Assembly (NCBI GenBank): GCA_024403035.1
Contig: JAKSSP010000006.1
Span: 34,014 to 98,013, forward strand
Direction of reading: 5' to 3'
Length of the DNA: 64,000 bases
Origin: Mogibacterium sp.
GTDB taxonomy: Bacteria > Bacillota > Clostridia > Peptostreptococcales > Anaerovoracaceae
A program made the position numbers and the translations under genes. This document shows, one piece after another, positions 2,931-35,834 of the stretch (position 1 is its first letter; each line of letters begins with the position of its first letter). The notes under the pieces are model-generated. The model was not told the origin of the DNA. It worked only from the letters and a program-made list of their open reading frames with translations, and made no database searches.

Positions 2931-2950
2931 ATGTAAAGTCTTCTTTACAT
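2931..2950. repeat. GTAAAG palindrome, locus A copy 1
   Basis: Perfect 8-bp arms ATGTAAAG/CTTTACAT around TCTT, five bases after the buk stop codon. It is one of eight copies of the same palindrome in the window (see 3005, 18787, 18822, 18854, 34946, 34963 and 34980). There is no T-run, so it is not a terminator by itself. Confidence 0.8.
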
Positions 2951-2965
2951 AACCGGGCAATATAA

Positions 2966-2993
2966 AACACGCTTCTTCAGGAAGCGTGTTTTT
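2966..2993 (+). terminator. Rho-independent terminator of buk
   Basis: The stem AACACGCTTC/GAAGCGTGTT has a TTCAG loop and runs into a short T tract (TTTTTG). Confidence 0.8.
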
Positions 2994-3004
2994 GTTGATA
3001 TTAT

Positions 3005-3024
3005 ATGTAAAGTTGTCTTTACAT
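3005..3024. repeat. GTAAAG palindrome, locus A copy 2
   Basis: Perfect 8-bp arms ATGTAAAG/CTTTACAT around TTGT. Its last base is also the last base of the stop codon of the convergent aminotransferase gene. Confidence 0.8.
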
Positions 3025-18786: not shown

Positions 18787-18806
18787 ATGTAAAATATCCT
18801 TTACAT
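18787..18806. repeat. GTAAAG palindrome, locus B copy 1
   Basis: ATGTAAAA-TATC-CTTTACAT with one arm mismatch. It lies 11 bases upstream of the hemW GTG start, where a ribosome site would be expected. Confidence 0.75.
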
Positions 18807-18821
18807 TATTGTGTTGTTAGT

Positions 18822-18841
18822 ATGTAAAGTAATCTTTACAT
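18822..18841. repeat. GTAAAG palindrome, locus B copy 2
   Basis: Perfect arms ATGTAAAG/CTTTACAT around TAAT. Confidence 0.8.
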
Positions 18842-18853
18842 ATCTGCATCAAA

Positions 18854-18873
18854 ACGTAAAGTGTTCTTTATAT
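18854..18873. repeat. GTAAAG palindrome, locus B copy 3
   Basis: Degenerate copy ACGTAAAG-TGTT-CTTTATAT, 10 bases before the lepA stop codon. Centre-to-centre spacing in this locus is about 35 and 32 bases. Confidence 0.65.
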
Positions 18874-33592: not shown

Positions 33593-34936
33593 TCATTCCT
33601 CCAGAGCTTTCTTTGCCAGCTTATCCGCGAGCTCATTGTACTTGTTTCCCGCGTGGGCTTTGACCTTCACAAAAGTGATGTCCATGCTCTTTCTGGCCTC
33701 TTCCACAAAGTCTCTGTATCCCTGAGTCAGTGGATTGTTTGCCTTCCAGCGTCTGTCAGCCCAGGCTCCGATGCCTTCATAGTCGTGATAGATCTCCACC
33801 GCTTTGACACCGTTGGCCCTGCACCAGTCGATCGCGATCTTGGATCCCATGATCTCGCCTGCTACATTTCTCTGTTGAGCAGCCTCTTCATCGTCGAAAG
33901 CAGAATTGAGTTCTGTCGTCTCCCTCTTCCCACTAGCGTCTGTCTCAACGATCACGACTCCGCATGAGAACCTGCCGCTGCCGTTGTCATAGCTTCCATC
34001 CACGTACGCTCTTATGCCTGCAGGGAACTTATCTTCGCCTTCTTTACCATCAGACAGGCCGAGGTATGCCATCGCTTCAGAAGGATCCGCAAAGCTTTTG
34101 TATTCTGCTCCGGTAAAACCGTCCACCTGCGCCTTGCAGTCATCCCATCTCATGAATATGCCCGTCGTCCTGCCCTTTCTTACCGCGTATACCTTTTTTG
34201 CCACTGCTTTGCTCTCCTTGTCCGATTTGCCTGTCGTATGGCCTGTCTCCGGATTCTCATCAAATTTCTTAAGAAACGTCAGCCTGTGTATAGGCGTCTT
34301 TCCCAGAGTCCTTAGTCCCTCATAGTGCTTCGCTGTCCCATAGCCCTTGTTGCCCGCGAAGTCGTATCCCGGATAGACCTCGTCCATTTCGATCATGTAT
34401 GCGTCTCTGGCGACTTTGGCGACTATTGAGGCCGCGGCTATGCAAAGGCATTTTTCATCACCCTTGATGATCGATTCGCTCGGCATGCCTGCGTCAAGCT
34501 TTACGGCATCTATCAGCAGCATGTCTTTTTTGTGCTCTTCATCCTCTCCGCTTAAGAGTCCGCGTTCAGCCAGCATATGCCCGGCAGCCGCGATCGCTTT
34601 TTTCATCGCGTGTTTTGTCGCCTCGAGTATATTGACCTCATCGATCTCATTGTTGTCAGCGATGCCGGTTCCCCAGGCAACTGCCTTCTCCTTGATGATG
34701 TCCGACAGTTCTTCGCGCTTTTTGGCAGAAAGCTTCTTGGAATCGTTGATACCGGTGACATCGAAGTCATCCGGAAGGATGACACACGCTGCATAAACAG
34801 GTCCCGCGAGCGGGCCTCTGCCCACCTCATCGATACCTGCTATGTATCTGTAGCCTTGTGATCTCAGCTCATCTTCGTGAGCCTTCATCTCAGCCAGCTT
34901 AGCTATGTCTCTTTCCTGTCTTTCCGCTTTTGTCAT
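33593..34936 (-). CDS. rnhB: RNase HII-RNase HI fusion protein
   Basis: A 447-residue protein joining two unrelated RNase H types. Residues about 30-228 are RNase HII: GIDEVGRGPLAGPVYAA gives Asp36-Glu37, LLIDAVKLD gives Asp143 and IVAKVARD gives Asp178, a full DEDD site. Residues about 248-293 are the hybrid-binding (viroplasmin-like) domain found at the N terminus of many RNase HI proteins (KKVYAVRKGRTTGIF, YKSFADPSEAMAYL). Residues about 306-447 are RNase HI with Asp313 (YVDGSYD), Glu361, Asp385, His428 and Asp438. Both sites look intact. It follows rbgA, the standard place of rnhB. No ribosome site is seen; three GTAAAG palindromes lie just upstream of the ATG. Confidence 0.9.
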   Translation of the reverse strand: MTKAERQERDIAKLAEMKAHEDELRSQGYRYIAGIDEVGRGPLAGPVYAACVILPDDFDVTGINDSKKLSAKKREELSDIIKEKAVAWGTGIADNNEIDEVNILEATKHAMKKAIAAAGHMLAERGLLSGEDEEHKKDMLLIDAVKLDAGMPSESIIKGDEKCLCIAAASIVAKVARDAYMIEMDEVYPGYDFAGNKGYGTAKHYEGLRTLGKTPIHRLTFLKKFDENPETGHTTGKSDKESKAVAKKVYAVRKGRTTGIFMRWDDCKAQVDGFTGAEYKSFADPSEAMAYLGLSDGKEGEDKFPAGIRAYVDGSYDNGSGRFSCGVVIVETDASGKRETTELNSAFDDEEAAQQRNVAGEIMGSKIAIDWCRANGVKAVEIYHDYEGIGAWADRRWKANNPLTQGYRDFVEEARKSMDITFVKVKAHAGNKYNELADKLAKKALEE

Positions 34937-34945
34937 CTGTATGAT

Positions 34946-34965
34946 GTGTAAAGTGTTCTTTACGG
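34946..34965. repeat. GTAAAG palindrome, locus C copy 1
   Basis: GTAAAG-TGTT-CTTTAC core at 34948-34963, about 10 bases upstream of the RNase H fusion start. Confidence 0.8.
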
Positions 34966-34982
34966 TAAAGTCTCCTTTACGG
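34963..34982. repeat. GTAAAG palindrome, locus C copy 2
   Basis: GTAAAG-TCTC-CTTTAC core at 34965-34980, exactly 17 bases from copy 1. Confidence 0.8.
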
Positions 34983-34999
34983 TAAAGTTTACTTTACGT
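34980..34999. repeat. GTAAAG palindrome, locus C copy 3
   Basis: GTAAAG-TTTA-CTTTAC core at 34982-34997, again at 17-base spacing. It contains the last two codons and the TAA stop of rbgA, so the repeat is partly coding. Confidence 0.8.
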
Positions 35000-35834
35000 G
35001 CTCCAAGGTTATCCTGCCTATCTTACCGCCTCTGAACTCATCCAGAACAGCTCTTGCTGTCCTCTCATAGTCTATCCTGTTGCCGGAAAGAATGAATCCG
35101 CGCTTTCTCGCTATATTGTCCATGTTCTCCAGCGCGTCTTCGGAAATCTCATCCAGTCTGTATCTTTCTTTTAGCATGGCCGGATACTCGTTGCCAAGCA
35201 CCTTGATAAGCTCATATCCAAGATCCTGCACGCCGATTATGTCATCCTTTATACTGCCGCAGAACGCGAGATCCAGACCCACCTGCGGGTCTTCAAACTT
35301 AGGCCAGAGTATTCCCGGAGTATCCAGAAGCTGCATTCCGTTAGACAGAGTCAGCCACTGCTTCCCCTTCGTCACACCCGGTTTGTCGCCGGTCTGAGCC
35401 GATCTCTTTCCGGTCAGTCTGTTGATGAGCGAAGACTTTCCGACGTTAGGGACTCCTACTATCATGATGCGGAGCGGTCTCTTCACGGACTTTACCTCGT
35501 CCCTCTTCTTCTGCTCGGCCTCAAGAGCTTTCAGGATCTTCTTGATGTTCTCGCCTGACTGCAGATTGAGAGCCATGACACGCCTGACGCCTTCACTCTT
35601 CGAAAGGCAGTCCGCCCACTTAGCAGTCTCCTCTTCGTCAGCAAGGTCAGCCTTGCCCAGTACTATCAGGCGCGGCTTTCCGGAAACGATGTCGTCAATG
35701 ATAGGATTTCTGCTGGACACAGGAATACGGCTGTCGACGATCTCGATGACCAGATCCACAGCTTTGAGGTTTTCCTGTATCAATTCGCGGGTCTTCTTCA
35801 TATGACCCGGGTACCAGTTGATGTTGTCTATCAT
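34989..35834 (-). CDS. rbgA: Ribosome biogenesis GTPase RbgA
   Basis: A 281-residue circularly permuted GTPase needed for late 50S assembly. Motif order is G4 (VLGKADLAD, about 57-65), G5, then G1 (GVPNVGKSSLINRL, about 127-140), G2 and G3 (DTPGILWPKF). The N terminus INWYPGHMKKTRE is diagnostic of the YlqF/RbgA family. It normally follows rplS directly; here a 189-base inverted-repeat element and the rplS terminator lie between them. Its ribosome site is weak (AAGAAAAAGAA). The last codons lie inside a GTAAAG palindrome. Confidence 0.95.
   Translation of the reverse strand: MIDNINWYPGHMKKTRELIQENLKAVDLVIEIVDSRIPVSSRNPIIDDIVSGKPRLIVLGKADLADEEETAKWADCLSKSEGVRRVMALNLQSGENIKKILKALEAEQKKRDEVKSVKRPLRIMIVGVPNVGKSSLINRLTGKRSAQTGDKPGVTKGKQWLTLSNGMQLLDTPGILWPKFEDPQVGLDLAFCGSIKDDIIGVQDLGYELIKVLGNEYPAMLKERYRLDEISEDALENMDNIARKRGFILSGNRIDYERTARAVLDEFRGGKIGRITLEHVK

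Follow-up and report, generated by a model that had tools for sequence, protein, structure and literature searches.

A fused RNase HII–hybrid-binding domain–RNase HI gene in Mogibacterium and its relatives, with a putative retained internal start codon

A precedent for two RNase H products from a single message is eukaryotic RNase H1, where two start codons yield two forms that differ by a targeting signal; the locus described here may likewise give two forms, but what differs between them would be a second RNase H. Bacterial RNase HII is encoded by rnhB (NF000594, PF01351), and the gene found in our window (the whole 64,000-nucleotide stretch of Mogibacterium sp. DNA that was analysed) shares with it the full domain, the DEDD residues, and the position after ylqF; the difference is that the fused rnhB has no stop codon of its own, and a hybrid-binding domain (HBD) and an RNase HI continue in frame. 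The HBD-bearing (dsRHbd) RNase HI of Firmicutes, as described for instance for Bacillus halodurans (PMC1950709), has the HBD directly before the RNase HI and the same five catalytic residues, and separate relatives of this type are present in other Clostridia; here, in contrast, it forms the C-terminal part of a larger protein, with a putative internal start replacing its own 5′ start. The same source reports HBDs joined to RNase HI and, in a single case, to a resolvase domain, and describes the RNase HI of Bacillus subtilis, without an HBD, as inactive (PMC1950709).

Mycobacterial RNase HI–CobC (MSMEG_4305, Rv2228c; PMC7466739) also combines an RNase HI with a second enzyme in one chain, through a linker that varies, a fusion that its authors judged to reflect drift; its CobC partner is, however, not an RNase H, and no HBD lies between the two. 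In-frame internal starts giving rise to N-terminal proteoforms (PMC11005335) share with our locus a second product made from an in-frame start, and that study reports that alternative starts have a stronger Shine–Dalgarno context than annotated ones; unlike those proteoforms, the short form here would equal a whole ancestral gene. For a fusion of RNase HII with RNase HI, no description was found in the titles and abstract openings listed by searches of the open literature; within this scope the architecture may be new.

Domain architecture and locus

The acidic DEDD residues form the active site of RNase HII, and the D-E-D-H-D residues are the catalytic residues of RNase HI. Both sets are intact in the fused ORF (table 1), for which a Pfam domain search gives the order RNase_HII (E = 2.3e-38), Cauli_VI, which is the RNase H1 N-terminal or hybrid-binding domain (1.3e-18), and RNase_H (9.3e-10), all three above the curated cut-offs. 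The RNase_HII profile scores 132.5 bits (cut-off 25.8), and the NCBIfam equivalog for ribonuclease HII, NF000594, scores 274.5 bits (cut-off 243). The RNase HI domain reaches 39.3 bits with RNase_H; the fused protein falls below the cut-offs of both the classical RNase HI equivalog PRK00203 (NCBIfam; 25.3 bits, cut-off 160) and the RNase HIII profile TIGR00716 (30.1 bits, cut-off 161.2). Solved chains align with each part: bacterial RNase HII chains with the first, HBD chains of RNase H1 with the second, and 2kq2 with the third.

Table 1. Features of the fused gene and its surroundings, in window positions.
Feature	Position	Strand	Details	Evidence
Fused ORF, RNase HII–HBD–RNase HI	33593..34936	minus	447 aa, ~49.1 kDa; 447 codons from 34936 to 33593 without internal stop	
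RNase HII domain	34271..34840	minus	residues 33–222; D36, E37, D143, D160	Pfam PF01351, NCBIfam NF000594, solved-chain alignment
Hybrid-binding domain (HBD)	34064..34195	minus	residues 248–291	Pfam PF01693; alignment with 3bsu and 1qhk
RNase HI domain	33602..34009	minus	residues 310–445; D313, E361, D385, H428, D438	Pfam PF00075; alignment with 2kq2
Shine–Dalgarno-like AAGGAG	34214..34219	minus	within the ORF; 9 nt upstream of the internal GTG	
Internal start codon GTG	34202..34204	minus	in frame; Val245 of the full protein	
Proposed nested gene, free HBD–RNase HI	33593..34204	minus	203 aa, ~22.5 kDa	
YlqF/RbgA-type GTPase	34989..35834	minus	upstream neighbour	MMR_HSR1 match
rplS, ribosomal protein L19	36095..36436	minus	farther upstream, same direction	
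Three tandem palindromes GTAAAG-N4-CTTTAC	34948..34997	none	around the gap that separates ylqF from the fused gene	

To describe conservation we used 49 fused genes, one per genome, 42 of them from the genus of the window's genome (g1) and 7 from elsewhere, with G331, where the gene is seen only at a contig end, and a second fused copy in G330, itself cut at a contig end, left out. The nine catalytic residues are invariant where the sequence reaches them: D36, E37, and D143 of RNase HII in 48/48 rows (a contig end truncates the remaining row), D160 in 49/49, and each of the five RNase HI residues in 49/49. The GRG motif (G39/R40/G41) is present in all 48 rows that reach this stretch, and in the HBD, W264 and F282 are found in all 49 proteins and K280 in 48.

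The gene order rplS–ylqF–rnhB is usual in Firmicutes, and the window follows it, with a tRNA-Val downstream of the fused ORF. The first-pass annotation had described an unbroken chain in which an HBD lies between an RNase HII and an RNase HI with complete active sites, placed it at the normal rnhB site, and knew of no described enzyme with this domain order; all of these statements hold, the last within the literature scope given above.

Some further features of this locus were observed. The tandem 16-bp palindromes listed in table 1 recur in intergenic gaps at 2933–3022 and 18789–18871: eight sites occur in the window (six exact and two with one mismatch) against 0.07 expected, the window's own genome has 12 exact sites against none for the reversed control, and 16 of 47 fused genes carry one to five copies within 150 nt upstream of rnhB when the pattern is slightly relaxed. 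One pair lies between convergent genes, so not all of the palindromes are explained by a simple promoter operator. The RNA of the gap upstream of rnhB folds strongly (z = −5.76). A different fusion at the same locus, of a YlqF-type GTPase with RNase HII in one 509-aa ORF (L149; G293 contig 52), was seen in one genome of another genus of the family.

Distribution and origin of the fusion

In its own genus, RNase HII was found in 42 of 47 genomes and is fused to RNase HI in all 42, and the same architecture occurs in four further genus groups of the family (g26, g29, g168, and g178, in the last cut by a contig end); the fusion is thereby seen in a lineage of gut and oral bacteria related to Mogibacterium. 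Its carriers include M. timidum ATCC 33093 (L198), M. kristiansenii WCA-MUC-591-APC-4B (L193), and G145, a genome of three contigs and 99% completeness. A frameshift or a missed stop between the domains is excluded, since the ORF is open in all 42 congeners as well as in M. timidum and M. kristiansenii. Among the best 80 of 539 relatives, at least 32 loci have RNase HII and HBD–RNase HI in one ORF, namely L158–L187, L193, and L198; in this same set the fused loci L158–L187, which include Candidatus Crickella caballi (L179), come mostly from MAGs of ruminant or other gut origin whose titles name Mogibacterium sp. or an uncultured Clostridiales. A sample of 297 genomes of the order showed fusions only in the same family, among the matches listed. 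Seven genomes without a fused gene (G031, G002, G010, G029, and G331 of the own genus, G390 of g26, and G304 from outside the fused groups) also gave no ylqF match, in a search run without a positive control; this fits a locus missing from the assembly.

A phage or plasmid origin was considered and rejected: at least 80% of the protein was covered in none of the 105 plasmid and 380 phage records with a match, and in the 38 viral-contig loci, obtained in a scan that used RNase HII patterns, the match is confined to query residues 5–233, that is, to the RNase HII part.

Two sister genera carry the two genes adjacent but separate. In Mobilibacterium timonense (L227), rnhB ends in TGA and, 15 nt further on, an HBD-type rnhA preceded by AAGGAG begins in the same frame; Baileyella intestinalis (L215) has the two adjacent but in different frames, and in genus g54 they lie ~1.7–1.8 kb apart. 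Given the adjacent genes of Baileyella and Mobilibacterium, the fusion would most simply have arisen through loss of the rnhB stop: one such loss in a Mobilibacterium-like arrangement would give it, although this direction is what we infer and is not proven, because the RNase HII tree nests Baileyella and Mobilibacterium among the fused rows (with unstarred support). The trees are compatible with a single origin of the fusion but do not show it. In the RNase HI tree of all 64 rows the fused label needs two changes, and once five long-branch rows are removed, a branch with a support of 89.7, which is not starred, separates the 28 fused rows from all others; the RNase HII tree (26 fused and 20 separate rows) also needs two changes, and a single fused clade is not rejected (p-AU 0.484).

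Purifying selection acts on every domain: for the closest pair, dN/dS is 0.037 for RNase HII, 0.106 for the HBD, and 0.059 for RNase HI, with 0.048 for the first linker and 0.36 for the second, whereas several more distant pairs have saturated synonymous sites and give no ratio. The linkers vary widely in length and sequence, and the second has the highest or second-highest dN/dS wherever it could be computed (5 of 7 comparisons), which favors a fusion that is real but neutral, the enzymes having been joined by drift with each acting alone, as was concluded for the mycobacterial RNase HI–CobC protein (PMC7466739). We regard a neutral fusion as possible but doubtful: the join is kept in all 42 congeneric genomes with the gene and in four further genus groups, although this speaks for persistence and not for benefit.

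The start codon within the linker

In the first-pass annotation the domain order, the residues, and the site were correctly recognized, and the absence of a separate rnhA, for which it proposed a survey, is supported, but the account was incomplete, as it missed both the before-state described above and a conserved start codon in the linker. A start codon lies 4–8 codons before the first conserved Tyr of the HBD in 48 of the 49 fused genes (ATG in 28, GTG in 14, TTG in 6; the nearest start codon was sought within 9 codons), the exception being G366. Because this positional search took the nearest start codon, a count at a fixed column is fairer: at the alignment column of Val245, 45 of 49 rows have Met, Val, or Leu, in every case encoded by ATG (26), GTG (14), or TTG (5), and three of the four remaining rows have a start codon a few codons away. 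In the fused genes overall, GTG accounts for 22.5% of Val codons and TTG for 4.7% of Leu codons. Nine other columns mix Met, Val, and Leu: seven have start codons in 6–25% of rows, and two, which are mostly Met, have them in 86–92%, as ATG alone explains.

The Shine–Dalgarno duplex energy at the internal start has a mean of −8.8, compared with −3.1 at 796 other in-frame ATG, GTG, or TTG codons, −6.9 at the starts of separate rnhA genes (35 of 48 loci scored, the other 13 not being picked up by the pattern), and −6.3 in synonymous shuffles, none of 1,000 of which was as low; these shuffles preserve the protein and the codon usage, whereas shared ancestry remains. The mean energy was lower than in 1,000 of 1,000 shuffles for all 48 genes and also for the subsets of less than 80% (27 genes) and less than 72% identity (15 genes), and in any shuffle the start codons were retained in at most 39/48, 21/27, and 14/15 genes, respectively. 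Local mRNA structure round the internal start is weaker than in 200/200 shuffles (27 genes). The signal is a collective one: taken singly, only two of the 48 genes do better than 95% of their shuffled versions, and sites with energies of −5.0 to −6.1 are weak (G095, G001, G007, G013, G332, and G329). A conserved start with a Shine–Dalgarno-like site beyond the amino-acid constraint, as would mark a nested gene, is thus found for the genes taken together and is weak in single genes.

As a separate observation, the rnhB start of the fused genes (window position 34936) has a poor Shine–Dalgarno match, with a mean of −2.6 at 47 starts, weaker than at the internal start.

The separate relatives have the start codon of their rnhA at about the same place as the internal start. 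This position, together with the weak support in individual genes (2/48), would suit a reading in which the fused enzyme is the only product and the linker start and its Shine–Dalgarno-like site are leftovers of rnhA, or pause the ribosome and so give RNase HII time to fold first. Synonymous sites are, however, near saturation (pS of the RNase HII part between congeners is 0.70–0.98 in 6 of 7 comparisons), yet the signals persist in both identity-limited subsets, with 0/1,000 shuffles matching them in each, and a pause has no need for ATG, GTG, or TTG where Met becomes Val or Leu; we consider a fused enzyme alone unlikely.

Since the linker holds a conserved in-frame start with a Shine–Dalgarno-like site, two products are indicated, which would be a 49-kDa bifunctional enzyme and a 22.5-kDa free HBD–RNase HI. 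Our preferred explanation, comprising a stop-loss fusion, a bifunctional enzyme, a selected internal start, and a free HBD–RNase HI, has as a whole a probability of roughly 0.7. An HBD-type rnhA would once have lain directly downstream of rnhB, and loss of the rnhB stop codon would have joined both genes into one bifunctional enzyme. The RNase HII part is predicted to nick 5′ of ribonucleotides embedded in DNA and the RNase HI part to degrade longer RNA in hybrids and R-loops, with the intervening HBD possibly tethering both to RNA:DNA hybrids; judging from the families, one protein could then carry out both ribonucleotide removal and R-loop degradation. The old rnhA ribosome-binding site and start codon would have been retained inside the fused ORF under selection, and ribosomes would also initiate there, giving the free HBD–RNase HI. 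RNase HII would in this way exist only as the fusion and RNase HI both fused and free, and because RNase HI would also be made free, its abundance would presumably always equal or exceed that of RNase HII.

RNase H genes of the genus, family, and phylum

No separate RNase HI above the cut-off was found in the 47 genomes of the own genus, and the one further RNase_H match there (G032 contig 72, 21.6 bits) is below the cut-off. RNase HIII above the cut-off was found in none of the 197 family genomes, 12 of which carry the fused gene, with Bacillus-type controls positive. In the lineage around Mogibacterium, no RNase H gene other than the fused one was detected.

An HBD occurs in 18 of the 197 family genomes. 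The other 179 include 161 with an RNase_H match of the classical type; the best E-value is at most 1.0e-24 in 160 of these, G336 being the exception at 5.4e-18. By comparison, 16 of the 18 HBD-bearing genomes have a single weak match (E from 5.5e-9 to 2.2e-13) and two have none in that survey; a strong classical-type match was found in 0/18. It should be noted that this survey can miss weak matches, since it did not pick up the fused RNase HI that other searches found in G023 and G168, and that the family genomes include incomplete ones and are not independent of one another. The RNase HI part of the fusion is of the HBD type, and most other genomes of the family carry instead a higher-scoring classical type without HBD (97–118 bits in the rows listed, against 39.3 for the fused domain). 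As none of the HBD-bearing genomes shows the classical gene in this survey, the HBD type stands in for it here, in line with the replacement model of the Bacillus report (PMC1950709).

The low score of the fused RNase HI beside the classical type would agree with one domain being catalytically dead and serving as a binding module only, as would the inactivity reported for the B. subtilis RNase HI without HBD (PMC1950709); but the fused proteins show no variation at the catalytic residues, each domain is under purifying selection, and these genomes have no other RNase HI over the cut-off, and we regard a dead domain as very improbable. An assembly or sequencing artefact joining two genes can be dismissed, for although the window comes from a draft assembly of 57 contigs and 76.9% completeness, the same ORF occurs in 49 genomes, including G145, M. 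timidum ATCC 33093, and M. kristiansenii.

Returning to the two-protein reading, we think it fairly probable that this one gene is the cell's whole RNase H set and provides two proteins, an obligate fusion and, translated from an internal start under selection, a free HBD–RNase HI. Such a gene would be a "fused but not closed" operon, its inner gene having kept a translation start of its own through nearly the whole clade. If true, the enzyme would represent a naturally occurring bifunctional RNase H that unites ribonucleotide excision with the removal of R-loops and primers, and the gene a clear fusion found beside its likely before-state of adjacent genes with the inner start still under selection. 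With it one could test why cells balance RNase HII against RNase HI; other fused operon genes would be worth checking for retained internal starts.

Sampling was confined to the own phylum, where 46 of 398 genomes match the HBD–RNase HI query, some of them through one domain only. Independent fusions elsewhere in this sample were rejected, as the only ORFs longer than 400 aa with such a match besides the window's own (in G767, G537, and G841) have no RNase HII match. Two of these, L143 (G767) and L144 (G537), carry HBD–RNase HI together with RnlA/RNase LS toxin-type domains in one ORF, possibly linking RNase HI and an RnlA toxin in one chain; the third, L145 (G841), is a 418-aa ORF with an N-terminal half that by eye resembles a short-chain dehydrogenase, joined to an RNase HI domain.
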